Assembly (NCBI RefSeq): GCF_019649055.1
Contig: NW_026570244.1
Span: forward strand, 496,001 to 560,000
Direction: 5' to 3'
Source of the DNA: Paramacrobiotus metropolitanus
Taxonomy: Eukaryota; Tardigrada; Eutardigrada; Parachela; Macrobiotidae
Length of the DNA stretch: 64,000 nt
In this document: piece after piece, positions 4,121-62,253 of the stretch
Position numbering within the stretch: the first letter of the stretch is position 1
How the letters are laid out: each line of letters begins with the position of its first letter
Translations under genes and position numbers: made by a program
The notes under the pieces: generated by a model
What the model saw: only the letters and a program-made list of their open reading frames with translations
What the model was told of the DNA's origin: nothing
The model's database searches: none

Positions 4121-5050
4121 TGAAACGTTGTGTTTTTTCTTGTTAACTCGAGAAGCGGGGCGGCAATGCGCGAAAAATTTTGATGAATCGCCGATAATGG
4201 CTAGCAGCGCCCAAGAATCCCTTAACGTCCCGGATACATGCAGGTACCGGACGAGCTAGATAGCCTGAACGTTTTCGGATCTGGGGCAATGCCCTGGGAA
4301 TTTACCATATGACCTAAGAACTTTAGTTCCTTCTTCCCAAAGAAGCATTTGCCTGGTTTGATTTTCAGTCCGGCTTCTCGAAGCCGTTGCAAAACGATTT
4401 GAAGGTTTACTAAAAGATTTTGCCACGAGTCCGCATAAATTTCAACATCATCAAGATACAGTATTAAAATCTTTCCTTTGAGATCGCCCAGGACGCGATC
4501 CATCATGCGACTGAAAGTCGCAGGAGCCGTACGCAATCCAAAGGGCATTACTTCAATTGGAAAACGCCGTCCGGCGTTCGGAAACAAGTAAGACTCTTGG
4601 ATGAGTCATCCATCCTGATTTGCCAGTAGCCACTAGCCAAATCAAGGCTAGTAAAGTAACATGAATTTTTAAGACTGTCCAAACAGTCGTCGATTCTGTA
4701 ATGGGTAGGGATCAAAAATAGTGTCCTCATTCAAAAGCTTGTATGAAACACAAAATCTTAAAGACTCATCTCTTTCGTGCCAGTACCACATTGGCACATC
4801 GTTCTGAAATTTCGCATGGGCTGATCACGCCCTTTCGCAACATATCTTGGATCTGTCGAGTGATCTCGACTTTTGCCATTCCGCGAAACGCCGAAGCGGT
4901 TCCACGACTGGATTCGCTTCCGGTTTCAGAAAAATTCTGTGTGTCAACACGTTACAGGTACCGAGGCCTGATCGTCGGTCGAAAGACCTCAGTAAAATCC
5001 ATGAGCAAACGTACTAGTTCGTTCCGTTGTTCGACCGAAAGGTCACCATA
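4121..5050 (-). pseudogene. pol: gypsy reverse transcriptase domain
   Basis: The piece at 4548-4730 holds SLDLASGYWQI, which carries the first catalytic Asp of the RT palm. The piece at 4222-4587 holds MPFGLRTAPATF and the YLDD box (catalytic Asp pair), followed by FLGHMV, the usual RT thumb landmark. The two pieces are in different frames and the N-terminal fingers are scarcely readable, so the enzyme is broken although all catalytic motifs survive. Confidence 0.85.
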
Positions 5051-5888
5051 ATTCAAATTTTGAAAATTAATGTCTGAAACTTTTGCCGCAATTGTGGTAG
5101 GACCAAAAGGTCATCAATGTCATCTGTGATTTGAATTATTCTTCATAAAACGCTTGAGGTTTTCCGGCAGTAACTCTTCCAACGCGACTGCACTATTCTG
5201 AATCTCTTGGTCCGGAACCTCGAGGGTTCGCGTTTCTGTAACAGCTCTATTGGCATCCCTGATCCCGAAATTCTCTGTAACGGGTTCCTGATGCTTAGGA
5301 TTGTTTTCTCTTCGACCTCAAGGTTAATTAGTTCCTGATTACCCGCGACCTCAGTGGCAGGTTCCTGGTCTCCGGACTCGAAACCTCCGACCTCTAACTT
5401 GAATTCTTTCTGAATGCCAGTGACCTCGGTGACCGGTTCTTGGTCTCCGGATCGAAATCCCCGACCTCAACCTGACCTTTTCAAACTTTTTGTTCTCGTT
5501 GCGCTTCAGCAACCCAAAATTGAAAAACTTTTCACGATCGGCTAATGCCCTTATCATACTATCTTGTCTCCTTTCCTTCCCATCTTGGGAGGAACCTGCG
5601 TCCAACAACTGTAACCCTCGGGGCCTGCGGGTTCTGTACCATCAGTGTCTGTTTTCCCGGAAACTGTTCCGCCAGCAGAACAGCTTGGGAAACTAAGTTC
5701 GTAGATGCGGCCAAACCTGGGCTCGCCTTCTTTCTGAGCTCGCCCGAAATACATTTCTCAGACGGATTCTCCGTTAGTATTTCTACGGCAACTCGTTTGC
5801 CTGTCTTCGACCATCTCGTGGGTCGGATGGACCGTGTAGAAGGTAAATGGGATTAAAAAACCGGCTTCCCATTCCTTCATCCTGACCA
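5051..5888 (-). pseudogene. gypsy linker between protease and RT, with imperfect repeats
   Basis: This stretch separates protease from RT and has no recognisable domain. A phrase of about 80-90 bp is repeated at roughly 5345-5400 and 5420-5475; on the minus strand both give acidic text like SGDQEP-TEV. Reading frames are broken. Linkers of variable length at this position are common in gypsy elements, so it is probably a spacer and not a separate gene. Confidence 0.45.
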
Positions 5889-6383
5889 TTATCCGGGTTT
5901 GCAAGGCCGGAAACAGTAATAAAGCAAGGGCAAGACTACAGAATCATTACGCAGTGCTTTAGAATGAAAATCAATTTGAATCCGTGTTTGATTAAGGTAA
6001 TCAATTCCGATTATTACCTCAAAGGGTGCTTGGGTTATAACAAATAATTCACATGGTTGTACTTGGCCCAAAACTTCAAGATAGACATCAATCTTTTTAT
6101 TTAATTTACGTTGTGATGTTATTGTGGTGACGTATGGGCCATCAGTATCAATTATTTCCAAACCATTAAGTTTCGCAAAACCTTCCGTAATTAATGAAAT
6201 CCCTGAGCCGGTATCGAGTATCGCCCGGCATGATATATTATTCACACGAGCCCGACAGATAATTGGACCTACTTCACTATTTTTATATGGGTTTATGATG
6301 AAATGGTCTGTGCGTGCGTCGGTACCACGCACAGACCCATTCAGTTTAAAGAGGCAGGATCGTCCATCGGGAGCTGTTCCCAT
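5889..6383 (-). pseudogene. gypsy retropepsin (aspartic protease) domain
   Basis: The frame contains the active-site motif LDTGSG followed by SLITEGF, and near its end the second conserved block VIIGIDYL, matching the two landmarks of a retroviral-type aspartic protease. It would cut the Gag-Pol polyprotein and work as a homodimer. The domain is itself uninterrupted over about 160 residues, and it overlaps the end of the zinc-knuckle frame by about 40 nt, consistent with a frameshift-type Gag-Pol junction or with decay. Confidence 0.8.
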
Positions 6384-7581
6384 GAATCCGCCTGAAGGTT
6401 ACTGTGATAGAAAACTCGTGTCGGATTTGCAGCTGTACCGGCTGCCGGAAAAACTGGCGGGAGCTGTGGTCGAGCGGGTTGCTGACCACCTGTAATCATA
6501 GGGACAGGTTGGGCTGGACCCATAGCGGGATATGCATTAGGTGGGGGTGGCGGTCCGTAAGAACCGCGAGCTACTGCGTTGGCGTAGGTGCTTCGACCTC
6601 GACCGCGACCGGTCGATCCTCGGTAATTCCGACTTTGTGGGTTTTGCCAGCAGACGCCCTTAAGATGGCCTGCTTTCCCACAGTAATGACATTTACGAGA
6701 CTCGCGCTGCCGGGTATCGCGGCGTTGACCACCGGCTTCCAACTAGCTAAGCCTAGCGCGAATAGGTTCCATTTCAGCTGGATCAGGCACCGCAACATCG
6801 ACTCGTACGGCTTTTGCCTGCGTATCGGTTGGGGCGAAAGTTTCCGTAGGACTGTGTCGTCCGTTTAACCGTTTCGGTTTCAACCCGAGGCGGTCGGCGT
6901 GAAGGTCCCGCACCAGCTTCAGGAAAGGCTAAACGTTGCCTATATTTATAGGCGCGCGATATATTCAGTCGCTCGAGAAAATCTGTGGTATCCTCGATCT
7001 CGTCATAAACGGAAACGATTTCTGCTTTTAAGCCATCAGGCAAACCTTGGAAAAGGTGTAATATCAAATCATCAGGGAAGCGTTAGGATTACGCGTCGTC
7101 ACAATACGCGTAATTCGCGTGACATACGCGAGAGGGTCATCAGTTGAAAGCATTTTCAAACTGGTGCCTTCGAGGTCAAAGTCGATGGATTTTTCCCAAA
7201 GGTCTCTTTAAGAGCCTTCTTCAAATCATCCCAGCTATTGTCATCGGGACGATTGACAAACCAATGGAGGGCGTCGCCCTGAGACAAGCTCGAAGACAGC
7301 TAAGTAACTGTCCTGACTTCCACCCGTAAAGGGTTCCCTGTGACTCATATTCAAGAATAAAATTATCGACATCCTCAAGAAAGTCCCCGTGAATTTCGGC
7401 ATGTCCCGAATATTAGGGGCCCGAAGCTGAAAACCTTTTTCTGCTGGCTGATTATCGTCATCAGCGTCGCCTGGCGCCATGGCCTTTGCTGACTTTTATT
7501 TGCTCTACGAGGTTTCCGGTTTTGTTTACGTAGTATCGAAAGGCGACCTTTCAGTTCGGTCCAGCTTAAATTTTGATTCAC
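6341..7581 (-). pseudogene. gag: gypsy gag remnant with CCHC zinc knuckle
   Basis: The N-terminal part (about 7241-7480) contains the Gag-like phrase MPKFTG followed, in another frame, by an acidic helix region typical of metavirid Gag. The middle part (6783-7067) continues the capsid-like region, and the C-terminal part (6341-6742) contains C-x2-C-x4-H-x4-C (CHYCGKAGHLKGVC), a nucleic-acid-binding zinc knuckle, then a Gly/Arg- and Pro-rich tail. These pieces lie in different frames and at least two frameshifts separate them. In a working element Gag would form the particle that packages element RNA. Confidence 0.75.
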
Positions 7582-8360
7582 AGCGGACCGGAGAAGGTAC
7601 CCTGTGGGCGAAGGCGATAGGGATTCAATTCTCTGGTCAAAAGGTATTGCCGAATGAACACTCAGATCAGGTGATTCATAGAAAGCTGTGTTGTGTAGAT
7701 CTGCTTGATCAACCGTGTGGGGGTCGGAGTCCGAAGACGACTCTACGACGTTCCCAGGAAGGGTTGGCTCTGGCTTCTTGTTTCGATGCTTGAGCCAAAA
7801 TTTATCAACCGTGGAATGGGAGCTATACCCGAATCCAGGTTAAATCAATCTTATTAACACACAATTTCAAACGACGGGTAGGGCCATGACACAAAAAAGT
7901 AGTAGAAAACAGGAAATGGGTTTGGTACCACGATTGTTCAAGAAGAAATTATCGGACCGATCGCTGAATACAGAATTGGTAAAAACAGGCGCAGCTGACT
8001 TATCAGTTTTTGTCATCCGGCTGCGCACAACAACAGCCAACAATCTTGGTAAGAATCTTTACCAGAAAAACATAACGGGATGATTCATCCCGAGGTAACG
8101 ATTCTCTTATTTTAATATAGAACGGGTCACGTTTTGGAAAAATAAAGTTCATCTGATAACATACATGTTGAATGCTATGTGCAGCATAATATTTATGCTG
8201 TTTAAATGGATACGTACAAAAATAAAACGTAGCTCTATAGAGCATAACCGGAAAATATGAATATTATTTGCAAGAAGAAGACAAAAATAATAAAATGAAA
8301 TCCAGAAAACTGTAAATAAATTTCCGAATGATGAAACCACATCAAAAAGAAAAGAGAATC
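7582..8360. other. Non-coding stretch, probably element 5' leader and flank
   Basis: No convincing gene is seen. If the gypsy element is complete, its leader and 5' LTR should lie here, but I found no partner sequence at the other end. The second half is AT-rich. Confidence 0.4.
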
Positions 8361-17916: not shown

Positions 17917-19664
17917 ATGATGAAAAAATCGGTGGCAGTGGATATTTTTTGTGGGCTGCTAGTTCTGATTGCTGTGTGTAATCTGCAGTTTTTGGATGCA
18001 TGCGCAACCCACTCGGCGAGGCAACCTACCCGAACGGATGCAGCACTAGTACTGCAAAGGGCGAAGGCCGACCTCAGAGCCATATTCGAAGAATGCTGGA
18101 ACTATACCGGTAGGTCAGCGTGTGTACAGTAATTACGGGTGATTGTTGTCTTATTGTTGGAACACAGTGCACAGGCTAATTTAATGTAGAATTACGGATA
18201 CCGCAGTATGGTATCTTAGCAAGGAATTAACTATATAAGCAGACCGTAATACCAGCTTCCTCAGACGGGCGCCCATCATGGAGATCGAACGGTTATAAAA
18301 AAATTAAGAGGCATTTTAAATTTTTTTGCAATGTACCTTATACCATAGAACTTCAATGGTATTTAAGGTAAAGAGCAGGTCCTAAATAGCTTCTATGATG
18401 GTGTTACATCGTTCGCAAACATCATTTGACGTGCAAATATTCTTCTATCCGTACAAACATTGTCTCCGAAAACTTAACACTGTACAATAGACGAAGTATA
18501 CGAAAAACATACAAAAACAAGAGACATAAAAAAACGGAATAACATAAGAACAAAATTAGAAGAATAAAAACTAAATAATATTAATAATAAGAATAAAAAC
18601 AGAAACAAGAAAATGAGAAGATGAGTACATAAAAAAAGAAGAAGAGATAAGAAAATGAGAGGCGACCGTAGGACGACCGGCTGATTTCTAATTATTTTTG
18701 TCAAGCGTGCATGAAAATAATATATCATTGTTATGTAAGGTATTGTTGAACTTGATATAAGTATGATTGGGACAGATACTTAAGGAGCAGAAAGCGCGAG
18801 TTGTTTGTCTCTTGCATAAACACCTGACTGCATGACGTTTATGAACGTTAAGGAAACGTATACTGCATTCATTGTGTGCCCGCAGCTTTTCGTCAGATCC
18901 ATCAGGCGGAAGTGTTGCACATGAACACGAATCCTGTTCGGCTGCCGGAGCTCTCCGCGCCCCCTCCCGATCCTAAAGGTAACGTGCACCGTCCTTTCTT
19001 GGACGAGACCATCAGCCTGGCGTGCGCGGCCGGTTCGAGTCAGCCGAATGATGTGGTGTGGAAACACGAAGGTCACCCGTTAGCCCTCAACCAGACGGCG
19101 GGAACCTTTCGCTACAGCCGCGCTCGTGACAATTCCCTCACTCTGCACAACGTCACCTACGCGGCGTGGGGCAAGTTCGAGTGTCTGCAGCGCTGTCAGA
19201 TGGAAGCGTGGTGCGTCCAGGCGGAGTACTGGGTCTTCCCCAAACCAGTGCCTAGAGTGCACGAGGTTTTCACGCAGCGCCTACTCCCGGTGGTTGTTCC
19301 GCGTTACACGCCCTTCTCGGTCACGTGTCAACTGGAGTTCCCTTGTAGTCCCGAACCAGCTCAGCACTTCGTCTGGCGTTATAGCGGGATCTATCTGTCC
19401 TGGCCGCCGGGTCACTACCTGCAGCAGACGGCCTGCATCGATCCAGACCGGCAGACGTTGATGATCCACACCAACTCCACCGAGATAACCGGCGCCGACG
19501 GTCGTCAGCACTGCGCCTCGACACTGACGCTGCACGTGCCCTGGCCGGAGCACAAATTAGGCAGCCAGGTGGAGTGCTGGGCGCGCTCCGACACCACCCA
19601 GCAGGAATGGTACGTCCTCGCCACTCCCGTTCAATTCAATGGAAGCCTGCCCTTCCCGGGATAA
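17917..19664 (+). CDS. Secreted two-Ig-like-domain protein, copy 1 (intact, two exons)
   Basis: Exon 1 (17917-18109) starts MMKKSV and encodes a hydrophobic signal peptide (FCGLLVLIAV) and a short helical segment ending CWNYTG. A phase-1 intron with GTAGGT donor and CCCGCAG acceptor (18110-18885) leads to exon 2 (18886-19664). The mature protein (323 residues before cleavage) has two Ig-like folds: Cys pair SLACAAG...GKFEC with VVWKH, and SVTCQL...VECWARS with FVWRY. Sequons NVT, NST and NGS suggest glycosylation; no membrane anchor is seen, so it is probably secreted. AATAAA at 19766 is a plausible poly(A) signal. Exon structure and phase match the copy at 59.2-60.3 kb, supporting the model. 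Partner and role are unknown. Confidence 0.8.
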
Positions 19665-24665: not shown

Positions 24666-25269
24666 AATTCGTCAAATGCTCTATTAAGCTAGATCCAGGA
24701 TGGATCCAGATACAGAGACCTAAACGGGATAGGTCCTGTGGAGTGAGCAATGCTGAAAGTATTGCGAACTATGCAATAACACACGATATTCGCGCAGCTA
24801 ATTGCTAACTTTAATGATCCAAACACACTGACTCTACACTGATCGAAGAGCCGCTTTCAGCGCATTTCGCATCCGCATTCGGCTCCGCCCATCACATGGC
24901 CGAGAGAAAGAACGGCTTTAGCCGACAACCAATGACCAGTGAGACACGTCACAGACAGTAATCCGTAGCGTAGCGTGGCGAAGGTGAACGCCGGTGAATC
25001 CATCGCTCACATGCCTCTGGGGGGATGCCGAGCTCCGTTCGAGGCCCGACATACTCCGGAATCCACGAAAAGACGATAGTCGCCAACTGTCTGTGCGGTC
25101 TACTGCTAATAAAGAAAACATCAGATTTTTTTATTCCATTTTATCACATCAATTTCATTAAGTATAATTCCATTAAACACGATGTGAATAAAGAGATCCT
25201 TCTTATAAAAGTACTATCAAATCAACAAAAACAGATCAACAGTTAACAGATCAAAAGAAGTTTAATCAA
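24666..25269. other. Intergenic, nothing recognised
   Basis: I see no gene or repeat that I can support here. Confidence 0.4.
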
Positions 25270-27249
25270 AATGTAGACTAGGATCCTCCATTTTGACTCG
25301 TAAAAGTCATGTCACACAGGTCTTGTCCACCGCCTTCCACACTTTGGCCCATTCCGCTCTGTTGAGCAATTCCGCGCATGTGCACTGCAACTTTCATCAC
25401 ATGAGATCCGCTTGAGAATCGGGTGCGTATCAGTGTACGACTTAGGAATACTGCTTCATCTTTGGAATTTGGTGCGAATCAATCGCACGACTTCATAATA
25501 CTGAGGTTCATAAAGGTCATGGAGGGACGTCCGTAGACAAGCGTAACTCGCTTCCTCCCTGGTTAAGGTCATCCTTGTTGAGATGATCCGAGATGTGCGA
25601 CCTGTCTGGGCAATGACGTGACAATAAAGTGACTCTGTTGGCCAGTAATGATCCCACAGGTCATCCTTCAAAACTTCAATTCCGATTCCATTAAAGGTCA
25701 TGGAGGAACTTAGCCAATTTTCTGTGGCTTTCAAGCACCTTTGCGCTTGCCTCCATAGTTAAGGACGTTTGTTCTGACCCTTTTGTCGCACATCCAATTT
25801 TGACATTCCTCGAGCGGCCAGAGTGCGGCAAAGTTCACCGTCGCATCTCCGATGGGGCCGGCTGACTACCGCAGTAATTTTACCCCACATATAAATTCCA
25901 CATGAACTCCTTATCTTTTTCGCCGCTTGTGGCCCATGTTCGTAACAAGAGATCCGGCTGATTACCGTGGTCTCTCTCGTATGATTATTGAACACTTAAT
26001 CGCTTACCCAGGAGAGCCGACTTTAATGCCGTGGCAACTCCGCTGGGCCCCGTTATTAGACCGAATCAGTTTTACCCCAGACTTTATTCCACATAATCTC
26101 TTTCTCATTTTCAGTCAATTGTGACTTTCAACTTTCTTAATGAGAGTTTACCAACTAGTTCGCCGTAGAGTACTCCCTCTATTTGACTTTTCCTGCAATT
26201 TTTGAATGCTGAAAACAACAATACAGGAACGCGGTTTCGGTAATATGTTACGTGACCTTTATACTTTACCACTGTGCCTAGTTAGGCTATTATCGTACTG
26301 AACTGAGGCTTTCGCATCCTCTTCTGATGACCTTTCGTTACTTTAACGTGATGACCTTTCACGTTACATTACTATGTTCAATCGCTTCACTCTAACACGG
26401 TGACCTTTCACGTTTGTGACGTTTATGCCAGTTCAAGTGCTCCGTCGATAATCAAACATTCAACAGTTTGTCTGACTTATTCCCCATCCTTTCCGATATT
26501 TAATTCTTCCATTTCGAAGTCGACAGCCATGCAGTTCAAAAGGTCATTCAACGTCACTCAGTTTGTTCTGCCGATATTATCCATTGTCGCATCAGTTATG
26601 GCGATTCCTCACGCACTTTTGTTATAGTGTTACATAGCATCCTATTTTTGGTTTGGAACCGAGTCCGTTGAAGTTGTTTTCAGACTTCCTGTACGTCGTT
26701 TTTTTCATCAAGGTCGCCCGACCTTCCACTTCATCTGTCACTTGACCTTTTAGTTTATCTCTATCACTTGACCTTTTGGTTCTTCGATTATCTTACCCTT
26801 ATCCATTGTAGCCTCGGCTAGAGTCTGATGACCTTTCATTTTTCCGTTTTTCAAGCTCTCTTGACCTTTCAGTGGACCTCTCACTTCTTCCGTTTGCGAC
26901 TCAGTCCGAGCCTGATGACCTTTCGACTTTAACAACGAAAACAATAACGATTGACTGGTTTATGTCTTTTAACCTTTGCACCTTCCCAACTTTTATTTGT
27001 AATATCATAGACGCCCGTTATTCAAATTTTTGGATTAATATCTTTGCGTCCGTTAGTTTTCCGATCAAAGAGTTCCTTGTCGGCGGCATCCACTTTTTCA
27101 CCCCATTGGGTTGGTAATTCCGTGGGAGTCGGTTTCGATTTCTTTTGCTTGACCTTTCGTTCCTCAATAGCTTTCGCTATGTCACGGCCAAATTGATCGG
27201 CTTTCGTTTTGCCGCTTCTATCGCGTCTTCTCTCGTTCTTGAAAGGTCA

Positions 27250-27480
27250 TTCCTATTACTGGTACCAGTGCGTGGTTCAAAATATTTCGGATTACGCTCT
27301 GCTTTTTCACCCACGTTCGGGTGGATTCAATCACTGGTAGCAGTACGTGGTTCGGAAATATCTTTTGATGTACGTTCTGCTACTTTAGCACCGTTCTGCT
27401 GACTTTTCGAACGGTCATTTTCATCTCCGGTAGCAGTGCGTGGTCCAAAAAAATTTATGCTGACGTTGTTCGGATTAGGC
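27250..27480 (-). repeat. Three imperfect repeats encoding EPRTGTS-like text
   Basis: GGTACCAGTGCGTGGTTC, GGTAGCAGTACGTGGTTC and GGTAGCAGTGCGTGGTCC occur at about 27259, 27330 and 27434, each followed by AAAATATTT/CGGATTACGCTCTG-like sequence, with spacing of about 75-100 bp. Confidence 0.6.
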
Positions 27481-27777
27481 TCTGGTGCTCTTAACGCCGT
27501 TTTCCGGTGACTTTTCTGCTAAATTCCCAACATCTGCGTTCAACTTTATTGTAACCGCTGTTTCGAAATCTTGGTCCTCTTTCTTCGGTCTTTCTTTTCT
27601 CTTTTTCGGTTTATTCATACTAAACTCATCTTTTATGTCATTTGCATCCATTTCGGGCAGCAGAGGTGGTTCGAAAAAGACTTTCCAAGTCTTTTTAGGA
27701 AAAAAGTTCAGCTACTTCTGGCATCTCATCTAGTGATGGCAGATGCTAAAGTTTCAGACGGTCAATCGAAACGACTT

Positions 27778-28086
27778 TTAAGTGACGACTTTCTTTGCGA
27801 TGACTAACTCGAAATATTTTCCTCTGAGGCCTGTCACTCCTGCCAACGGCTTCACGTCAGTTTCGGCTTGTAGCCCTGGTGTGAACATCAGTCTCGTTCG
27901 AGCCGGTGCGTGTCTAGCCAACTTGACCTTTACACGTGAACAGACTGATGGTTTTAGCTTAATCCGTTGATCGCTGTAAACTCTGATCACATCTTTGGAC
28001 AATCTTGTTCGTTGTACTTTTATTCTTCTGACTTTGATTTCTTGTTTTTTTTCCTCGTCAACCTCATCGTTTTCATCCAAGTCCAA
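27778..28086 (-). pseudogene. Pol linker-like domain (pre-RT)
   Basis: After an acidic start (MDLDENDEVDEEKK) the text RIKLKPSVCSRVKV...LMFTPGLQ...VTGLRGKYFELVIA resembles the beta-rich segment found between protease and RT in many LTR-element polyproteins. No RT follows downstream, at least not in readable form. Low-level similarity by eye only. Confidence 0.35.
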
Positions 28087-28382
28087 TAAGTCTCCCTGTT
28101 CAGAAAGGTCATTTACACCTGAATCTTCTGAAGCCGTTGAGTTATCTCTCGAGCTCGTTCATTCCGAATCGGAGTCACTGCTCTCACGTTCTTGTTTAGT
28201 AACTTGACCTTTATTAACCTTTTCAAGTGGACGCTCATCAACTCCTTCGTCCTCGGATGAAAGGTCACTTTCGTTTTTCCGCGAATCGCTAAGTTTTTTC
28301 GCTTTCGGAATTTTGAGCAGATGTTTGCCCGTTTCCTTTGTCTTCCGTCCGGATAGTGCGATGATTCTCGGGTGGCTCCGTG

Positions 28383-28898
28383 CTACGCGTATTTTCGTCG
28401 ATGACCTTTCCGTTTGATTGGAGTTTGACCATCTTCGTTCCGATTTGACCTTTCCAGTTCGTCAATTTCCTCGAGGCTCATTAATGACCTTTTAGTCTTT
28501 TCGATCGGTGGCCGTTCCTCACCGTTATCGAGTAACCTTTCATCGATTTCTGCCTCCGTTACTGGGTTCTGTAGCCCATCTGATATCCTTTGCACTTCTT
28601 CAAAAAACTTTTTCCGCATTTCTCTTCTGTCCGTTAGCATTTGGGCTATTTCGAAAGCTGATGGGGATCGTTCTTCTGTTTCTTCTACGGTTTCTTCTTT
28701 AGTTGCTTCCTTTGTTGTATCCTTATCGGCCTTTTCATTTTTAGTGGCCTCATTACCTTTAGGTCTTTTTGGGCCAACAAAAACACAATTTGCCATCAGT
28801 TCCTCAGTGACCCAATCATCGCTCGGAATCGTTTTGTAACATGCACCAAGTGTCACCGCCGCGTTCTGGGTATTCCACTCCATCCGGGTAAGGTGCAA
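28383..28898 (-). pseudogene. Acidic charged frame, 171 residues
   Basis: A frame dominated by Glu, Lys and Thr (TKEATKEETVEETEE) with a helical middle (AFEIAQMLTDRREMRKKFFEEV). It carries octamers at 28402, 28446 and 28485, read as KGH, ERS and KRS. Probably the linker of a Pol-like polyprotein; no domain recognised. Confidence 0.35.
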
Positions 28899-29222
28899 AG
28901 GTCACTTTTGTCTTTATCAATAGCTCCGGCTCTCATCTTTTTCGAGTTACCCAAAAGAAGTCCCAAAATAATTCCGTTCTTGCGTCTTCCCATAATTGAA
29001 TCTCGCCGTTTATTTCCTGTATCTCTCTTTCGAGTTTCCGTTGTGATAGTATTGGTTCATGAGGATCCTGGATTCCGTTGTCCACACACTGCTGCCAATA
29101 ATTTAACCATTTTCATCTCCCAGTTATAGAGTTCTTTACACATGACAGCCATGCTCGGTATCTATTCCAGTGATACCGTTCCACATGTGGCTTCCACATT
29201 CCATTAGTCCTTATGATGCTTT

Positions 29223-29810
29223 TCAGTTCTTTCTGGACTTGATGACCTTTAAGGTCTGCCAGTTCCGCGTTACATCTCGGCCACTCTGAACGGTCATCTT
29301 GGGAGGCGTCTTGGCAACGTTTAGTGCATTCCCATTGCGGTTACACTCTACACCGAATCTCGCAATAACCGTGGCTGCTACTCCCGGCTCGTTCCTCTGG
29401 AGTTGTGACCTTTGAGGGACTTCTGGAACAGCGTCTTCATTTCCATTGTCATTTTCCGTTGCAGTTGTGTCCTGGTCGCATTCGATTGGGATCACGCTTC
29501 TCTCATCAGATGATACTTCAATGATTTCCTGTTCCTTATCCATCTGGTGACCTTTTAACTGTTCAATCGCCTTATCGCTGATTTCGCTCGCGAACATCTG
29601 TTCCATGTCGGTGATCTGTTTTGGAACGTGCCGTGACCTTTCGTTCTTTTTATCCTTCCATATTTTAGCAGTCTTTATTCCCAGTGCCTCTGGTACTGGG
29701 ATAGGCTTCGCCCACTCCAATCCTGGTACAAGCGATTGTTTCGCTGCGATTGCCGCTTCCTTCTGTATGGCAGCTATCTGTTCGAGCGTCAATGAACTTT
29801 CCTTTTCCAT
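29223..29810 (-). pseudogene. Acidic frame with PVPEALG phrase
   Basis: 195 codons are open. The N-terminal part has an Ala-rich helix (IAAIQKEAAIAAKQSL) and IPVPEALG. The phrase recurs in DNA at about 29690, 29815, 29868, 29935 and 30085 (CAGTGCCTCTGGTACTGGGA on the plus strand), so the region contains degenerate tandem repeats. LKGHQ, ERSR and others come from octamers. Unrecognised. Confidence 0.35.
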
Positions 29811-30012
29811 GACCAGTGCCTCTGGTATTGGGATAACTTTTTCGATTTTTCCATTTTAATTTTTTCCTCGGTGCCTCTGCTACCGGGATGAGCTTTTTGT
29901 TATTCTCTTTTTTGCTGCACTATTGTCATTCCCGGTGCCTCTGGTACTGGAATGACCTTTCCTCCTCCCTTTATTGGTAGCGTTGGCCGATTTATCGTAT
30001 TTTCAATTTCCT

Positions 30013-30504
30013 TTAGGATGATATCCATTTGCTCGAATATCGGCAATTCATTTGATACCATACCACTCTTTCCTTTTCCATTCCCAGTGACTCTGGTACT
30101 CGGATCGGCCTTTTATTATCAGCTTGAGCATTTATCGTCTTTTTTCCAGGTTCGGTGACCTTTCCCACTTTAACTTTTGCAACCGGTTTCGGATCATCTT
30201 CAACTTCTTCTTCACTTTCGTTATCAACCAGTACGAACTTCTTTTCTAAGAAGTCAAATCCCAGTAGTACTTGCACTTCGTCAGATTTCGGTCGAACGTA
30301 AAAGGAATTTTGGCTGGTCCGTTTCCGTAAGGTCACGGGTGCTTCGCAGTAATGCGTTACGTTAAACCCTGACGTTCCCCTGATCCCGTTTTTGCTCGCA
30401 AACTGGTCTAGTGGCAATGGAAACGCTTTGAGTCCATTCTTTTTACAAAACGGTTGACTAATCAGCGATGTCTTAGCAGTAGAATCCAACATTGCATGAC
30501 CTTT
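30013..30504 (-). pseudogene. Retropepsin-like domain with altered active site
   Basis: The frame begins MLDSTAKTSLIS, where a working retropepsin would have D-[ST]-G; here Gly is replaced by Thr (DST), which should inactivate it. It continues with a flap-like G-x-SGF region and ends with LLGFDFLE, the second landmark of aspartic proteases in LTR elements. A KGH triplet encoded by the octamer at 30497-30504 sits just before the active-site Asp. An acidic tail (ESEEEVEDD) and PIRVPESLG follow. The fold call rests on the two landmarks and their spacing. Confidence 0.55.
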
Positions 30505-30762
30505 ATGTCTCCAACTTTGACTTCGTGCGTTTACGCTTCAATTCGTTTAGGTAATTTTCCGTTTTGAATTTTAAAATTTCGGATAGTACATTTGACTGGA
30601 ATTAGCGATACAGATCCCGGATCCATGCCGGAAAGCACTTGCCCCTTCGCTAAAGTGCTGTTGCATTTCAGTATCGAACTCAATTTATCAATCCTGTCTG
30701 GCACGTCAGTTCGAACACCGTAAAATTCTCAAGTCTTTTGCATGTTTGTTACTTTTGACTCC

Positions 30763-31212
30763 TCACACTTTTGCAGCTGTAACTCCAGTGACCTTTTCAA
30801 AGTTATTCACTTGTTTATTCGCGATAGTGCTGTCCTCTTTACCTTTAGTCATTTCAGTTATAGTCTGGTACAGCATCCCCTCTTTTCGAATATTCGGGTT
30901 TTCGCGTAGCTTCTCGATAATTTCCCGTGTAAGTCGCTCGGCCACTGTCAGTTCCTCTTCTTCGCTATCTCGCAATTCCTCAGATGACCTTTCGTAGACG
31001 GTCATCTCTTGATCGTTCTCGTTCATCCAATTGGTGACCTTTTGTGTCACTTCGTTATTAGCTAGCGTCGTATCAGTTTGTGAAGACATCACATCAGTTC
31101 TGGCTACTGAACCTTTAGTGGCGTTATTTTGCTGCGCTTGCACCGCATCATTTGACCTTCCTTTTTGTATTTTCTGCGCTAAGTCCGATGACCTTTCAGT
31201 TCGCTTCATCAC
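30763..31212 (-). pseudogene. Gag-like acidic frame with octamers in several frames
   Basis: A 149-residue open frame contains ERSSDLAQ, QKVTNWMNE and ERSSEEL; in each the text comes from an embedded AAAGGTCA read in different phases. A predicted helical segment (LTVAERLTREIIEKLRE) stands in the middle. No known domain is seen. Confidence 0.35.
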
Positions 31213-31885
31213 AAATCCGCCACTCAGTAACTTTTGTATGGGAACTTTTCTCCATAGTTTAGCGGTTTATGTTCTGGCGGTGTTATAGGTAAAATATTGC
31301 TGCATAATTATATGACCATCGAAGCGTTTAAAATAGAGCAGCTAAAGCTGTTAATAGCTGCCCTTTAATTGTTGCCATCACACAATAAGGATCAATGCAC
31401 CAGTTGCATGTGATTCATCATTGTATGCTTATTTTCTATTGTCACGCCCGAGTCACACCCTATTGTTAAATCATGCCCTAGATCTTTCTTCATTGTTTTT
31501 ATGCTGATTTAGATTTTCTATCCCTGATGCTTAGAGTATAGAAGCAGCACTGCGATGCTGCCAGAAAATGCGCTCTGTTCATTTGGACTTTCCATCAGTA
31601 AAGAGTTGCCACTAGCTGCTGTTTTGTTGCGAGTATAGTTGGTTAGAGTTAGTGCCATCTTCCACTATTCCCTGCCATCCCGGATAGTTATGTAGCCACA
31701 TTGATACTCGTAACAGCGGTGCGTTCCGAGGATCTTTCAGGTTAGCGAGTGTCTGCGTATACTCGGCTGCGTTAAATGCTGAGGCTGGGCTCAATGACCC
31801 TCGCGCTGGTTTCCCGGTAACCAACTTTTCTAGTCGTTTCCTCTCACATCGCGTTCGCAACTGTTGTATGTCTCAGTAATCCTCT

Positions 31886-32158
31886 TTAGACGTTCTTCGC
31901 TTTCTGTTTAGCTTTTGGCGATACTGGTATCCACATCCCATGGTTTCCGTTAGGTCGGTAGGCCACCACTTTTTGCCACATTTCCTTTCGTTGCACCGGT
32001 TCTGCATCCTCAAGTGAGTCATCGGAGGTCTGTTGTAACCGTTCGCTATCCTTTTGTTGCGCTTTTCGCAGTGTCAAGTCCGTTTCTTGACCTTTTAGCA
32101 CGACACTTTCGTCCTGACGTTTAGCGTTCGCCCTCGCTCCTTGACTTTTCACTCGCAC
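31886..32158 (-). pseudogene. Basic/acidic coiled-coil-like frame
   Basis: A 90-residue frame rich in Lys, Gln, Arg and Glu (LKGQETDLTL, AQQKDSERLQQ) ends with a more ordered piece (WQKVVAYRPNGNHGMWIPV). The KGQ is encoded by the AAAGGTCA octamer at 32088. Possibly Gag-like; unrecognised. Confidence 0.3.
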
Positions 32159-32352
32159 TTTCCCTACGGGTGTTGACCTCTGATGATTCGGTATGCCGTT
32201 TTCTTCTATGTATTTCTGGAATGGTGCACTTCTTCGTCGTCATCTGCAGTTCTGTTCTGCAACTTCTTTTGGTTCAGCAGCGCTTGCTGAATCTTCGCGT
32301 TACGTAGTGCACGTCGTCCCGCTAACACCTTTTCGCTGCAATACGGTGACTT

Positions 32353-32559
32353 TTAATTTAGCTGCCCGTTTTGCAGTGTCGCGCTAGCATCACGACAATT
32401 TCCACTCGCAGTACAATTCTGCGGTGACCGTTGGTCCCGTTGCCAGATTCCACTCGCAGTACCATTCTGCGGTGACCATTGATTCGCTTGCACATTTTCA
32501 CCTGCAGTATCCTGCTGCGGTGACCTTTTATCCACTTGCACTGATTTCCCGATAACCAA
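32353..32559 (-). pseudogene. Frame with imperfect SPQN-GTASG repeats
   Basis: Three copies of an approximately 18-residue phrase (SPQQDTAGE, SPQNGTASG, SPQNCTASG) are encoded by ~54-60-bp imperfect tandem repeats, each carrying a GCGGTGACC core that resembles or equals TGACCTTT. It is probably the disordered N-terminal part of a Gag-like protein. No domain is recognised. Confidence 0.35.
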
Positions 32560-32620
32560 CTCATTTTGCTGCTGTGGCGGTATCCTTATAACCGTTTCAT
32601 TCTCATTTTGCGATGACGGT

Positions 32621-33960
32621 ATCTATATAACTGACCAATCACATTCTTCCATTAAAAATTCCGATCTGCCTGATATCACGGTCAACGACCAAACATGCGC
32701 ACTGTGTACAAAACTCCGCCTGCTTATGTGCTTGAACTAACACGGGCCTATGTTGTGGGCCGGGGGGAAAAGCAGCGGCCGACGCTGACCGGATGCGATG
32801 ATCAGTTTCCGTCGATAAGCCGTTTTCCTGGGCTGCGGATTGAACTGCCAGGGCACCCAAACCGCCGCCACCTTGTTGGGGCGAGAGAAGTGGCAGCACA
32901 ATGTTAAGGAAGTTGGGGATGGGGTCCTACAGGCACATAGCTATCGTACTGGTTACTTCAGTTCTGGTACCTTGGACAAGTTGACTTAGGTCATCGGAAC
33001 CTAACTTAAGCTAAAAATGGCTTACCACCCGGAAGGACAAGTCGACCGCTTAGTGCAAACCATATAGGACGGTACACTGAAGTAGTGTGCTGCGACACAA
33101 AGGATGGCCATCAATAACATTGAGCCTTACCGTACGTCGTAACCCAAATCAACCGGGTAAAACAAGTAAAACAAGTAAAACAGGTAAAACAGTTGACGGC
33201 GATAGCGGACATCAGCAGCCAAAAGTACAAGTTCGGTCAAGTGACCCACAAACAGTACTACGACGCTATCATCAACCTAAAGCAGCGAGGGAACCTCATC
33301 GACGAATTGGCTGTTTTTTACTTGCGGGAAAACGTTACGGAACCAAACCTAAGAGTGGCTTTGGACATCCGTATGCCGAAAACAACGCAAGAGTTCCAAG
33401 GCAACGTCCGGGACTGGATTCCGGGAAAGCCGATATACAAAGTAACCGAGACCGGGAACATTACGAACTAAATTACCGTTAAAAAGGCGACGCCTATTCC
33501 TACGGAACTGGACCGTGCCGTACGCCCCTGGTTTCCCCGGGATGAACAGGACAATGTTCCGGTCTCCGGCGACAATGACATCAGGCGAACCGAGCCAAGA
33601 AGCGAGGGGGAGCAACCGAACAAAAGTGCTGGCTGGCCCCCGACGGTTTAGCTGGCTTCTGCTGAATCAGCAACTCCGCCGACCTGCTCTCCACCGAGAC
33701 TCAGAAGGGAACACCATAGAATCACAAACAGTAACCCCGACCACGGATCTGCTCCAAACTTAGGGAACAGTCCACAACAAAGACTCCCCGACGTCAAGTC
33801 AGGGACTTGAAGGACGTCACCACCGCAGACCGCGGAAATAGCCATGCCATGCTACCATCCGCATAATTACGAATTCGCTACCATGACAGGATGCTCGATG
33901 CCGGCATCTCGAGTGTTTCTAGCTGGATTTACCGAACCAACCTCCGAACACGGAGGTTAC
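32621..33960 (+). other. Possible second element, short Gag-like frame
   Basis: Between the octamer region and the 165-bp repeats, GTAAAACAA simple repeats occur near 33158-33190. A 92-codon frame (33193-33471) reads QKYKFGQVTHKQYYDAI...ELAVFYLRENV; its hydrophobic pattern could fit a Gag-like helix bundle, but I do not recognise it. The rest is not coding in any supported way. Confidence 0.3.
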
Positions 33961-43379: not shown

Positions 43380-44110
43380 ACCAAATAAAATTCGCAGGGT
43401 CATCCGAAGAAAGGCAGACTCCCGTTGAACTGAACGGGAGTGTTGAGGAAATGCCACTCCTGCTGGGTGGTGTCGGAGCGCGCCCAGCTTGGAGCCGGTG
43501 TCATTCTGCCAGTGCACGTGCAACGCCAACGTCCAGGCGCAGTGCTGGCGACCATCTGCGCCGGTTATCTCGGAGGTGTTGGCGTGGATCATCAGCGTCT
43601 GGCGGTTGTCCTGTAGGCGGGCGATCTGCTGCCGGCAGTGGCCCGGCGGCCAGGCCAGGAACACTCCGTCGGCACCGTGACCGCCGGCAGCCACTGGGCG
43701 AACAGTCTGGGATATTCGGCCGTTGGTTTAGGGAAGACCCAGTATTCCGCCTGCAAACACCAGTCGTCGGTCTTGTTCTGCTGACAGCGCTGCAGACACT
43801 CGAACGTCCCCCACGCCGCGTAGGTGACGTCGTGCAGTTGCAGAGCGTGATCTGTACGACTGCAACGAAGGTCTCCTTCGGTCAGCCGGACGGCTAACCG
43901 GTGACCTTCATGTTTCCACACGACATCTTCCGGTAATTCCGGATCGGCCGCACATCATGCCAGGCTGAGCGTCTCACGCAAAAAAGGGCCTTACATAACC
44001 TTTGGGGTCCGGACGGGGCCGAGAGAGTTCCGGCGCCCAAACCGGATTCTTGTGCCGGTATAACACTTCCGCTTGTTGGATCAGGCGAAACGCTTCGGGG
44101 ACTAGAAGGG
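43380..44110 (-). pseudogene. Ig-like family, copy 4 (frameshifted exon 2)
   Basis: On the minus strand an exon-2-like sequence runs from about 44090 (after AG, text AFRLIQQAEVLY) through the first Ig domain (VVWKHEGHRLAV-like, AAWGTFECLQRC), the linker with WVFPKP, and part of the second (LAWPPGHCRQQ, RQTLMIHANTSEITGADGRQHC). It is broken by frameshifts near 43960-43900, 43690 and 43490 and has lost the segment of the second domain that holds the first Cys. Exon 1 is not seen. No function is expected. Confidence 0.8.
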
Positions 44111-46600: not shown

Positions 46601-46804
46601 TTTACTGTTTTTGTTCATAGAATGTCCAAGTTAGGACATTAGTAATTCTATGGGAATGAACCCATAGACCAGGACACAAGTGGTTCACTTGGTTCTGAAC
46701 CAATAGAACCAAACAGTGTTTACAACGCAGCAACGGAATGAGAAGCGAAACCAATAGAACCACATAGTACCAACACTGAACCACAAGTCCGCCAGTAAGT
46801 ACAC
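46601..46804. repeat. Degenerate edge of the minisatellite
   Basis: GAACCAATAGAACCA-type phrases appear irregularly (46692, 46750, 46781) before the regular array starts; this may be its ancestral or decayed edge. Confidence 0.55.
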
Positions 46805-49800
46805 ACGCACTTACCGGCACGCTATCACACTACCACTTTACCCCGTGAACCAGGTGAACCTATAGAACCACATAGAACCACCAGTGAACCACCACTGAAC
46901 CAAGCACAGACTCACTTGCCGGCACGCTGACACATTGCCACTTTACCCCGTGAACCAGGTGAACCTATAGAACCACACAGAACCACCAGTGAACCACCAC
47001 AGATCCAAGCACAGACTCACTTGCCGGCACGCTGACACATTGCCACTTTACCCCGTGAACCAGGTGAACCTATAGAACCACATAGAACCACCAGTAAACC
47101 ACCACAGAACCAAGCACAGACTCACTTGCCGGCACGCTGACACATTGCCACTTTACCCCTTGAACCAGGTGAACCTATAGAACCAATAGAACCACCAGTG
47201 AACCACCACAGAACCAAGCACAGACTCACTTGCCGGCACGCTGACACATTGCCACTTTACCCCGTGAACCAGGTGAACCTATAGAACCACACAGAACCAC
47301 CAGTGAACCACCACAGATCCAAGCACAGACTCACTTGCCGGCACGCTGACACATTGCCACTTTACCCCGTGAACCAGGTGAACCTATAGAACCACATAGA
47401 ACCACCAGTAAACCACCACAGAACCAAGCACAGACTCACTTGCCGGCACGCTGACACATTGCCACTTTACCCCTTGAACCAGGTGAACCTATAGAACCAA
47501 TAGAACCACCAGTGAACCACCACAGAACCAAGCACAGACTCACTTGCCGGCACGCTGACACATTGCCACTTTACCCCGTGAACCAGGTGAACCTATAGAA
47601 CCACATAGAACCACCAGTGAACCACCACAGAACCAAGCACAGACTCACTTGCCGGCACGCTGACACATTGACACTTTACCCCGTGAACCAGGTGAACCTA
47701 TAGAACCACATAGAACCACCAGTGAACCACCACAGAACCAAGCACAGACTCACTTGCCGGCACGCTGACACATTGCCACTTTACCCCGTGAACCAGGTGA
47801 ACCTATAGAACCACATAGAACCACCAGTGAACCACCACAGAACCAAGCACAGACTCACTTGCCGGCACGCTGACACATTGCCACTTTACCCCGTGAACCA
47901 GGTGAACCTATAGAACCACATAGAACCACCAGTGAACCACCACAGAACCAAGCACAGACTCACTTGCCGGCACGCTGACACATTGCCACTTTACCCCGTG
48001 AACCAGGTGAACCTATAGAACCACCAGTGAACCACCACAGAACCAAGCACAGACTCACTTGCCGGCACGCTGACACATTGCCACTTTACCCCGTGAACCA
48101 GGTGAACCTATAGAACCAAATAGAACCACCAGTGAACCACCACAGAACCAAGCACAGACTCACTTACCGGCACGCTGACACATTGCCACTTTACCCCGTG
48201 AACCAGGTGAACCTATAGAACCACATAGAACCACCAGTGAACCACCACAGAACCAAGCACAGACTCACTTACCGGCACGCTGACACATTGCCACTTTACC
48301 CCGTGAACCAGGTGAACCTATAGAACCACATAGAACCACCAGTGAACCACCACAGAACCAAGCACAGACTCACTTGCCGGCACGCTGACACATTGCCACT
48401 TTACCCCGTGAACCAGGTGAACCTATAGAACCACATAGAACCTAGTGAACCACCACAGAACCAAGCACAGACTCACTTACCGGCACGCTGACACATTGCC
48501 ACTTTACCCCGTGAACCAGGTGAACCTATAGAACCACATAGAACCACCAGTGAACCACCACAGAACCAAGCACAGACTCAGTTGCCGGCACGCTGACACT
48601 TTGCCACTTTACCCCGTGAACCAGGTGAACCTATAGAACCACATAGAACCACCAGTGAACCACCACAGAACCAAGCACAGACTCACTTACCGGCACGCTG
48701 ACACATTGCCACTTTACCCCGTGAACCAGGTGAACCTATAGAACCACATAGAACCACCAGTGAACCACCACAGAACCAAGCACAGACTCACTTGCCGGCA
48801 CGCTGACACATTGCCACTTTACCCCGTGAACCAGGTGAACCTATAGAACCACATAGAACCACCAGTGAACCACCACAGAACCAAGCACAGACTCACTTGC
48901 CGGCACGCTGACACATTGCCACTTTACCCCGTGAACCAGGTGAACCTATAGAACCACATAGAACCACCAGTGAACCACCACAGAACCAAGCACAGACTCA
49001 CTTGCCGGCACGCTGACACATTGCCACTTTACCCCGTGAACCAGGTGAACCTATAGAACCACATAGAACCACCAGTGAACCACCACAGAACCAAGCACAG
49101 ACTCACTTGCCGGCACGCTGACACATTGCCACTTTACCCCGTGAACCAGGTGAACCTATAGAACCACCAGTGAACCACCACAGAACCAAGCACAGACTCA
49201 CTTGCCGGCACGCTGACACATTGCCACTTTACCCCGTGAACCAGGTGAACCTATAGAACCACACAGAACCACCAGTGAACCACCACAGATCCAAGCACAG
49301 ACTCACTTGCCGGCACGCTGACACATTGCCACTTTACCCCGTGAACCAGGTGAACCTATAGAACCACATAGAACCACCAGTGAACCACCACTGAACCAAG
49401 CACAGACTCACTTGCCGGCACGCTGACACATTGCCACTTTACCCCGTGAACCAGGTGAACCTATAGAACCACACAGAACCACCAGTGAACCACCACAGAT
49501 CCAAGCACAGACTCACTTGCCGGCACGCTGACACATTGCCACTTTACCCCGTGAACCAGGTGAACCTATAGAACCACATAGAACCACCAGTAAACCACCA
49601 CAGAACCAAGCACAGACTCACTTGCCGGCACGCTGACACATTGCCACTTTACCCTTGAACCAGGTGAACCTATAGAACCAATAGAACCACCAGTGAACCA
49701 CCACAGAACCAAGCACAGACTCACTTGCCGGCACGCTGACACATTGCCACTTTACCCCGTGAACCAGGTGAACCTATAGAACCACACAGAACCACCAGTG

Positions 49801-51732
49801 AACCACCACAGATCCAAGCACAGACTCACTTGCCGGCACGCTGACACATTGCCACTTTACCCCGTGAACCAGGTGAACCTATAGAACCACATAGAACCAG
49901 GTGAACCTATAGAACCACATAGAACCACCAGTGAACCACCACAGAACCAAGCACAGACTCACTTGCCGGCACGCTAACACATTGCCACTTTACCCCGTGA
50001 ACCAGGTGAACCTATAGAACCACATAGAACCAGGTGAACCTATAGAACCACATAGAACCACCAGTGAACCACCACAGAACCAAGCACAGACTCACTTGCC
50101 GGCACGCTAACACATTGCCACTTTACCCCGTGAACCAGGTGAACCTATAGAACCACATAGAACCACCAGTGAACCACCACAGAACCAAGCACAGACTCAC
50201 TTGCCGGCACGCTGACACATTGCCACTTTACCCCGTGAACCAGGTGAACCTATAGAACCACATAGAACCACCAGTGAACCACCACAGAACCAAGCACAGA
50301 CTCACTTACCGGCACGCTGACACATTGCCACTTTACCCCGTGAACCAGGTGAACCTATAGAACCACATAGAACCACCAGTGAACCACCACAGAACCAAGC
50401 ACAGACTCACTTACCGGCACGCTGACACATTGCCACTTTACCCCGTGAACCAGGTGAACCTATAGAACCACATAGAACCACCAGTGAACCACCACAGAAC
50501 CAAGCACAGACTCACTTGCCGGCACGCTGACACATTGCCACTTTACCCCGTGAACCAGGTGAACCTATAGAACCACATAGAACCACCAGTGAACCACCAC
50601 AGAACCAAGCACAGACTCACTTACCGGCACGCTGACACATTGCCACTTTACCCCGGGAACCAGGTGAACCTAAAGAACCACATAGAACCACCAGTGAACC
50701 ACCACAGAACCAAGCACAGACTCACTTACCGGCACGCTGACACATTGCCACTTTACCCCGTGAACCAGGTGAACCTATAGAACCACATAGAACCACCAGT
50801 GAACCACCACAGAACCAAGCACAGACTCACTTGCCGGCACGCTGACACATTGCCACTTTACCCCGTGAACCAGGTGAACCTATAGAACCACATAGAACCA
50901 CCAGTGAACCACCACAGAACCAAGCACAGACTCACTTGCCGGCACGCTAACACATTGCCACTTTACCCCGTGAACCAGGTGAACTTATAGAACCACATAG
51001 AACCACCAGTGAACCACCACAGAACCAAGCACAGACTCACTTACCGGCACGCTGACACATTGCCACTTTACCCCGTGAACCAGGTGAACCTATAGAACCA
51101 CATAGAACCACCAGTGAACCACCACAGAACCAAGCACAGACTCACTTACCGGCACGCTGACACATTGCCACTTTACCCCGTGAACCAGGTGAACCTATAG
51201 AACCACATAGAACCACCAGTGAACCACCACAGAACCAAGCACAGACTCACTTGCCGGCACGCTGACACATTGCCACTTTACTCCGTGAACCAGGTGAACC
51301 TATAGAACCACATAGAACCACCAGTGAACCACCACAGAACCAAGCACAGACTCAGTGCCGGCACGCTAACACATTGCCACTTTACCCCGTGAACCAGGTG
51401 AACCTATAGAACCACATAGAACCACCAGTGAACCACCACAGAACCAAGCACAGACTCACTTGCCGGCACGCTGACACATTGCCACTTTACCCCGTGAACC
51501 AGGTGAACCTATAGAACCACATAGAACCACCAGTGAACCACCACAGAACCAAGCACAGACTCACTTACCGGCACGCTGACACATTGCCACTTTACCCCGG
51601 GAACCAGGTGAACCTATAGAACCACATAGAACCACCAGTGAACCACCACAGAACCAAGCACAGACTCGCTTACCGGCACGCTGACACATTGCCACTTTAC
51701 CCCGTGAACCAGGTGAACCTATAGAACCACAT
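46805..51732. repeat. 105-bp minisatellite, ~47 units, higher-order pattern
   Basis: The unit is 105 bp (measured from CAGACTCAC at 46907, 47012 and 47117). It contains GAACCA-type subrepeats in one half and CACTTGCCGGCACGCTGACA plus CATTGCCACTTTACCCCGTG in the other. Variants of 90-102 bp and two units with an extra GTGAACCTATAGAACCA block (near 49890 and 50033) occur. Three-unit blocks carrying AGATCC, AGTAAACC and CCTTGAACC variants recur at about 46975, 47285 and 49440, so there are higher-order repeats. Since 105 is a multiple of 3, long open frames appear, but I do not think it is coding. It ends abruptly at 51732 inside an Ig-family gene. Confidence 0.95.
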
Positions 51733-61460: not shown

Positions 61461-62253
61461 ATTTCACCAGTAAGGCACTGGTTTTCTTCATCTGAAGCAA
61501 GGCGCGCTCATCGATCGGATTGCCAGCATCAGCGGCTGCACTGACTAGAGAGTCTCCTGTAGGAGAACTCGTCGTGCACTTCCAATCAGACGGCAGAAGG
61601 CTGCGGTGCAAGAGCTCTCCTGTCGGAGAACTTGTACTGTTTCCTCTGCTAGGCAGCGGGCACCTCTTGTTGGGGTCAAGGCTGTCGGGCACAAGAGCCG
61701 AGAAGCCACGAGTTGGCAGCACCGAAGGAGGTGCCAAGAGATCAGTAAACGCGCTCCACCAAATTGGCTGTAGAGCGACCTGCTGTTTAGCCTGACAAGC
61801 GCAGCAGAGGGCAGAATAGGTCGGACAGGAAGGCGCCACAACCGTGCGGAATACGGCTGCGCGGGAACGGAAAGTGGAGAAGATCATCTGGATCATCTGG
61901 ATAATCTGGATCATCTTTTCGCAGGATCGGAACGGTAGACAGGTAAAAACCCATTATTAATTATTGGATTGGTCGAGGCGTAAAATACGCAATTCCTATT
62001 GGTCGGTACTGAGTTGAGCTAGATGTAGGCGTAGTTTTTGCACACGACACGCAAGTCTGGCCGTCGATCTGTGACGTCAGGTCGGTCAGAAAATTTTAAC
62101 GGGCACACGTGATTGGTCAGTTAAACGAACTCTGATTGGTCGAAAAATTTAACGGAAAAAACGATCTAAAACGATCTCCTAACGATCTCCCAGTAGTGAG
62201 ATCGATCTCTTTTCATCGGAAACGATCTAAAATTAGCTAAAGGAGGTTAGTTT
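61461..62253. other. Non-coding, with short inverted repeats
   Basis: No supported gene. CTCCTGT[AC]GGAGAACT occurs twice (61555, 61616), and GATCATCTGGATAATCTGG simple repeats lie at 61880-61915. GATTGGTC recurs four times between 61963 and 62150. Confidence 0.4.

Follow-up and report, generated by a model that had tools for sequence, protein, structure and literature searches.

The genome of the tardigrade Paramacrobiotus metropolitanus contains a long terminal repeat (LTR) retrotransposon family, placed among the Ty3/gypsy elements by its domains, in which an octamer, AAAGGTCA (TGACCTTT on the complementary strand), is densely repeated. Within the coding frame of this element the octamers are under selection as nucleotide sequence, in both orientations and with sharp 8-bp limits. 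One copy of the element lies in the window, by which we mean the whole stretch of 64,000 nucleotides analyzed here (contig NW_026570244.1, positions 496,001 to 560,000, of assembly GCF_019649055.1). Our reference is a copy with two LTRs, called C9 below, whose pieces are L041, L038, and L042.

Octamer Density in the Element and in the Genome

A preliminary description of the window listed 35 octamers within 25500-32530, and all 35 positions proved to be exact on recount. On the forward strand they are 7 AAAGGTCA and 28 TGACCTTT, that is, 28 sense and 7 antisense sites in the element's own direction (minus strand). A second-order Markov model of the region predicts 0.66 + 0.05, or ~0.7, occurrences, so that chance and base composition are ruled out as the source of the octamers. 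No other 8-mer is as frequent in the region, the next-ranked ones, which overlap the octamer, reaching 17, and the rest of the window (~57 kb) holds 14 octamers. In the whole genome (169.8 Mb) there are 42,562 octamers, one per 4 kb, vs 15,522 occurrences of a reversed control word; the density in 25500-32530 is ~20 times the genome average, and not equal to it, as the preliminary description had proposed to check.

A DNA search of the genome with the window element gave at least 45 matches (the best 40 of 213 candidates were scored), and 20 loci were taken. The presence of the motif in other copies, which the preliminary description had also wished to see examined, was observed in all 20: the 17 full 10-kb loci hold 28 to 45 octamers each, and the shorter loci hold 16 (L021, 9.5 kb), 24 (L036, 6.2 kb), and 32 (L040, 7.2 kb).

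A Ty3/gypsy Element of 17.9 kb

C9 is 17,891 bp long and ends in two 342-bp LTRs that are 100% identical, in a match of 343 bases that takes in one base just beyond them. CTAA flanks it on both outer sides as a target-site duplication. The domains of L038 follow each other as aspartyl protease, RVT_1, RT_RNaseH, Integrase_H2C2, and rve, which is the Ty3/gypsy order, and a CCHC-like knuckle is recognizable by eye in Gag. The reverse transcriptase (RT) has at least 120 matches, those listed with 38-46% identity and with RVT_1 and RT_RNaseH-type domains typical of Ty3/gypsy elements, in a similarity listing rather than a tree. Judging from its LTRs and its domain order, the family belongs to the Ty3/gypsy LTR retrotransposons. 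The extent of 7 kb given in the preliminary description was too small, since the element covers ~24686-32721 in the window and 17.9 kb in C9.

The 102 octamers of C9 (65 sense and 37 antisense) are distributed over a leader array (17), the gag frame (15), the pol frame (41, giving 56 in gag/pol), and the 3' region (29), within which there is an open frame of 177 codons. All 17 octamers of the leader array are antisense, spaced at 29-31 bp and then at 41-43 bp with one 107-bp gap between, and those outside the array are mostly sense (65/85). Within pol, the linkers and an orphan domain described below carry 4.1-8.9 octamers per kb, the protease (PR) 2.9, RT-RNase H 1.6, and the integrase 2.7.

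Two of the other loci have an unusual structure. L031 contains a 1,273-bp tandem duplication within one element copy (L031:7135-9696, 87% identical), and L021 (G000:C24:173347-182890) consists of two inverted fragments, which come nearer to the window copy than any others do (72-88%, depending on the piece).

Conservation of the Octamers between Copies

Selection was measured in the gag-pol stretch covered by the fetched loci. The window copy was compared with 19 loci, namely 18 close copies and L024, and L021 was handled apart. Octamers of the window copy were identical in 273 of 384 comparisons, vs 49 of 722 for the flanking 8-mers; the backgrounds were 12,002/77,697 (0.154) for all 8-mers and 605/3,557 (0.170) for anagrams, and the reversed control word, at 5/18, had too few occurrences to give a baseline. 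The comparisons, which are non-independent, draw on 18 sense and 3 antisense sites of the window copy, 21 in all. Taken as single pairs, L038 has 15 and L027 has 17 of the 21 octamers identical, for which the binomial probability, given the background rates of 8-mers, is 4e-8 and 2e-10, respectively. Both directions contribute, with 222/330 sense octamers identical vs 35/615 flanks, and 51/54 antisense octamers vs 14/107 flanks (three sites). At the window sense sites, per-base identity is 0.83-0.98 within the eight positions, vs 0.54-0.84 outside them.

The same was observed when the comparison was turned around: for octamers of the 18 close copies, the window copy agreed exactly in 259 of 452 cases (flanks, 121/839). 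Among the 18 close copies themselves, sense octamers were identical in 8053/9247 comparisons (flanks, 7514/18000) and antisense octamers in 1662/1940 (flanks, 1703/3793). In L021, 10 of 13 octamers agree with the window copy, vs 1 of 24 flanks and 511 of 2548 8-mers overall. Simple inheritance among close copies is ruled out, because flanking 8-mers are lost and octamers stay, also in L021. The set is subject to turnover: 3 of the 21 aligned window octamers are exact in no close copy (one mismatch at best), 2 are exact in one or two, and 14 of the 35 are unaligned to the close copies.

The preliminary description had held that codon use is not the cause, pointing to both orientations and all three reading phases, and this was borne out. 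In one copy whose pol frame is open, the sense octamers fall 9, 12, and 11 times in the three phases, and 7 more are antisense (39 counted); octamers are found at non-coding sites too. In addition, synonymous-type third bases inside the octamers are themselves conserved. For this test we used codons whose first two bases agree, with the expectation taken from the same codons outside octamers. In L038 pol compared with 17 copies, 1627 of 1651 third bases were identical (0.985; expected 0.774), and this was true of sense octamers (1350/1366, 0.988, vs 0.790) as well as antisense ones (277/285, 0.972, vs 0.700). L024 gave 67/73 (0.653 expected) and the window copy 58/60 (0.695 expected). An explanation by codons or by the encoded peptide is thus ruled out, and the test of octamers against their surroundings, which the preliminary description had suggested, is strongly positive.

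Mean synonymous divergence (dS) is 0.31-0.84 by region, and its ratio to nonsynonymous divergence (dN/dS) is 0.01-0.02 in protease, RT, and integrase. In L038, dS is ~0.31 in the N-terminal and PR-RT linkers, vs 0.74-0.84 in RT and integrase; the low value may reflect mosaic ancestry or an extra constraint on the linkers.

Double-Stranded DNA or RNA

G hardly ever follows the octamer. It does so at 0 of 65 sense sites of C9 and at 0 of its 37 antisense sites, the latter value being weaker than its number because many of these sites are repeats of one unit, at 0 of 35 sites of the window copy, and at 7 of 760 over 20 sequences. G follows other TCA at 37 of 128 places in sense and at 43 of 236 in antisense (octamers not removed in the antisense count). 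Genome-wide, AAAGGTCAC occurs 19,414 times, vs 3,461 for its control (5.6-fold). Because the octamers behave alike in both orientations, their reader is expected to be one of double-stranded nucleic acid, and these comparisons point to a double-stranded DNA site kept by selection along the internal body.

An RNA motif or RNA pairing is disfavored by the conservation in both orientations, the ninth-base rule, and the accessibility and wobble tests. Antisense leader copies, UGACCUUU, might pair with sense body copies, AAAGGUCA, to fold, dimerize, or package the genomic RNA, and the entirely antisense leader array and mostly sense remainder of C9 make such pairing possible. However, wobble-keeping changes are not preferred, though five of the eight positions allow wobble (13 wobble vs 13 other transitions in sense, 2 vs 6 in antisense; small numbers), and pairing does not predict the near-absence of G at base 9, where A, also mispairing, is common in sense sites. 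Octamers are also no more accessible (unpaired) in the RNA than anagrams, as judged in L038 and L025. We consider RNA pairing quite improbable. Reading of AAAGGUCA by a single-strand RNA-binding protein, e.g., the Gag nucleocapsid, as dispersed packaging signals would suit the CCHC-like knuckle and the spread of sites through coding RNA, but the antisense sites are conserved like the sense sites, in whole octamers and in third bases, and keep the ninth-base rule (with the reservation about repeated units), and the equal accessibility of anagrams applies here too. This is the explanation in which we have the least belief.

Elsewhere in the genome, AAAGGTCAG is repeated eight times at 90-91 bp (G000:C1:2537724-2538368), apparently as a satellite with the disfavored ninth base.

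Candidate Readers of the Octamer

NR4A receptors bind as monomers to the NBRE, which reads AAAGGTCA (PMC10419244); the octamer is letter-identical to it, as the preliminary description had stated, so that the window copy carries 35 exact NBRE words and C9 102. Position 1 has an identity of 0.94-0.98 at the window sense sites, i.e., a specific 5' A, unlike the NR5A/ERR form. The NR5A/ERR-type word CAAGGTCA is not enriched genome-wide (6,332 vs 7,867 for its control), and a site of that type was rejected. A query with the NR4A domain found three exons at C45:296812-298439 with 83, 73, and 67% identity, vs 31-66% at other places among the 38 matches listed, which makes C45 probably an NR4A-like locus.

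The reading that we prefer, with confidence and doubt in about equal measure, is that the body of the element is kept as a platform of ~100 monomeric double-stranded DNA sites, AAAGGTCA with A, C, or T as the next base, and that the reader is a host NR4A/DHR38-type receptor or one of the same specificity. The receptor would bind as a monomer, and the many sites in the leader array, the gag-pol linkers, and the 3' region would act jointly in cis. Together they would hold the integrated copy, or its complementary DNA (cDNA), in open, transcribed chromatin wherever the receptor is present. The benefit to the element is the least certain step of this mechanism.

Several observations weigh against a host NR4A-type reader. 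The leader and 3' sites lie outside the stretch in which selection was measured. The LTRs of C9, where one would look for the sites of a promoter factor, have no octamer, although at the mean density of the element their 684 bp would hold only ~4. The NurRE dimer (TGACCTTT-n6-AAAGGTCA) does not occur in the C9 pieces L041, L038, and L042, nor do inverted octamer pairs at 0-20 bp spacing, one direct pair being all that was found; the dimer is rejected as the site. In the genome, AAAGGTCAG is also in excess over its control (4,042 vs 2,427, 1.7-fold), and G follows 3 of the 14 window octamers outside the element, so the ninth-base rule is not general. The C45 exons have bit scores of 77.8, 53.6, and 28.1, and C22 tops the list at 94.6 (52% identity); C45 is not first by single-exon score because the NR4A-like domain is split there, and its orthology is judged solely by the identity values. 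Finally, the genome has 63 zf-C4 exon matches, and other receptors could read the octamer.

These 63 matches represent many candidates for another host DNA-binding protein (a nuclear receptor, an insulator protein, or an architectural protein), which might give the element an insulator-like or boundary role, as Su(Hw) does in Drosophila gypsy; the 5' leader array is placed like the gypsy insulator. The octamer matches the NR4A half-site exactly and the NR5A/ERR form is not enriched, both of which argue against it, and we think such a reader rather unlikely.

A product of the element itself could also be the reader, most likely the orphan Cys/His-rich domain encoded between protease and RT (L038:4570-5420). 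A strict text pattern finds this domain in 9 of the 20 sequences, and variants such as that of L025 escape the pattern. In Pfam no family matches the domain up to E 5, in the PDB nothing does better than E 0.73, and the 398 candidates from the protein collection yield no match at E 0.01. By analogy with VANC of VANDAL transposons, it might bind the octamer in double-stranded DNA and counter silencing along the body, which we regard as a minority candidate but a serious one. The domain is constrained (dN/dS 0.10 over 17 copies), and the sites, in both orientations, extend over the body and are in part arrayed in tandem, like VANC targets (PMC5735166). On the other hand, sequence searches recognize no DNA-binding fold in it, most of the octamers are in gag/pol, whereas VANC motifs are mainly non-coding, and the exact match of the octamer to a known host receptor site would have to be chance. 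In a variant that we find slightly less probable still, the orphan domain would read the ~100 words to tell the element's own copies or cDNA from host DNA and would protect or import these; tardigrades would then have evolved a VANC-like system independently, and its word would mimic a nuclear-receptor site of the host.

The preliminary description had offered a choice between host receptor sites and a DNA- or RNA-binding protein of the element. Host receptor sites are the best guess, given the exact NBRE, the lack of enrichment of CAAGGTCA, and the NR4A-like locus; a DNA-binding reader of the element's own keeps its standing, and an RNA-binding one is disfavored.

The Window Copy and Its Surroundings

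Judging from its matches to C9 and the fetched loci (Table 1), the window copy is a decayed, internally deleted derivative with broken frames. It is without the ~4.8 kb that follow the leader remnant in C9 (octamer array and gag), and a second deletion removed ~3.5 kb of C9-type sequence, comprising most of RT, RNase H, and integrase. Its pol-derived part has five listed minus-strand open frames of at least 120 amino acids (126-210), and the 3' LTR remnant, whose boundary at 25019 is estimated from the start of the LTR at base 3281 of L042, is the sole LTR kept.

Table 1. Coordinates in the window of the octamer cluster, the parts of the element copy, and a related fragment
Feature	Position	Strand	Basis
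Octamer cluster, 35 exact AAAGGTCA/TGACCTTT	25500..32530	both orientations	exact count and list
Decayed, internally deleted Ty3/gypsy copy	24686..32721	- (sense strand minus)	blastn to C9 pieces and 20 loci
5' leader remnant (C9 element ~998-1092)	32627..32721	-	L041 629-723 matches 32721-32627, 80%
pol N-terminal linker, protease, PR-RT region; frames broken	27794..32629	-	L038 1536-6401 matches in pieces, 72-77%
Retropepsin-like fragment	30013..30537	-	Pfam gag-asp_proteas E 5.5e-5, below curated cut-off
Deletion junction	27614..27794	-	L038 matches stop at base 6401 (27794); L042 matches start at base 50 (27614)
3' region with further octamers	25019..27614	-	L042 50-3280 matches in pieces, 76-85%
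3' LTR remnant, no octamer	24686..25019	-	L042 2303-3362 = 26005-24938; 3521-3618 = 24783-24686
5' leader fragment of related copy	61847..62160	+	L041 441-758 matches, 73%

The window also contains a second, unrelated Ty3/gypsy element (66-8000) with integrase and protease frames and with four octamers between 3416 and 5473; 14 genome places, its own included, match nearly the whole query at 86-100%. A 105-bp satellite array of 47 copies occupies 46749-51732. Related immunoglobulin (Ig)-domain-like frames were recognized by eye at 18852-19664, 43592-43954, and 59218-60180, the last of which scores below the cut-off with Pfam Ig models and matches uncharacterized P. metropolitanus proteins. For an Ig-domain protein of the window, the closest annotated relatives are from this species, with a 99% match that covers 83% of the query. 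Two octamers, at 59825 and 59918, each with C next, lie inside an Ig-family reading frame outside the element. Rfam gave no match in the window at gathering scores.

Significance and Comparison with Known Systems

The octamers clearly exemplify how, in nature, a DNA-level code can be superimposed on a protein code, synonymous positions being held where the same frame has diverged to a dS of 0.3-0.8. They also offer a direct route to the factor, with one word, one candidate receptor, and one family of copies. If NR4A reads the octamer, much of the genome excess (42,562 vs 15,522) may link this receptor to a transposon in a tardigrade; if a protein of the element reads it, this would be an anti-silencing system of a kind that we know only from plants. 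To our knowledge, elements that borrow host transcription-factor sites do so with few sites or in one block. The class of mobile elements with host-type transcription-factor sites is known; what is new, as far as the literature searched shows, is how many sites there are and that they lie within coding sequence. In that open literature we found no description of octamer arrays in a tardigrade retroelement, or of the element itself.

The closest system by its word is NR4A with the NBRE, since the word is the same and the genome has a locus that matches the NR4A domain with the highest identity among the matches listed; the difference is that a single mobile element here gathers ~100 sites and that coding frames hold over half of these. 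VANDALs are DNA transposons. In Arabidopsis, an element-encoded protein, VANC, reads a dense motif in VANDAL transposons and lifts silencing, and this 9-base motif resembles our octamer in being short, dense in one family, and partly arranged in tandem repeats (PMC5735166). Here, in contrast to the mainly non-coding VANDAL motif, 56 of the 102 sites fall within gag/pol, and the carrier is an LTR retroelement. A nuclear receptor half-site carried by a retroelement is known from mouse, where NR5A2 binds TCAAGG(C/T)CA in the short interspersed element (SINE) B1 in early embryos (PMC11102866). SINE B1 is short, whereas the tardigrade element, 18 kb in length, has ~100 NBREs, and CAAGGTCA shows no enrichment in the genome. 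The site array in the 5' leader, with its 17 AAAGGTCA sites, reminds us of Drosophila gypsy, likewise a Ty3/gypsy element. About a dozen sites for Su(Hw), a host zinc-finger protein, form one short block in the 5' leader of gypsy, whereas the tardigrade element carries another motif, which runs through its whole internal body.

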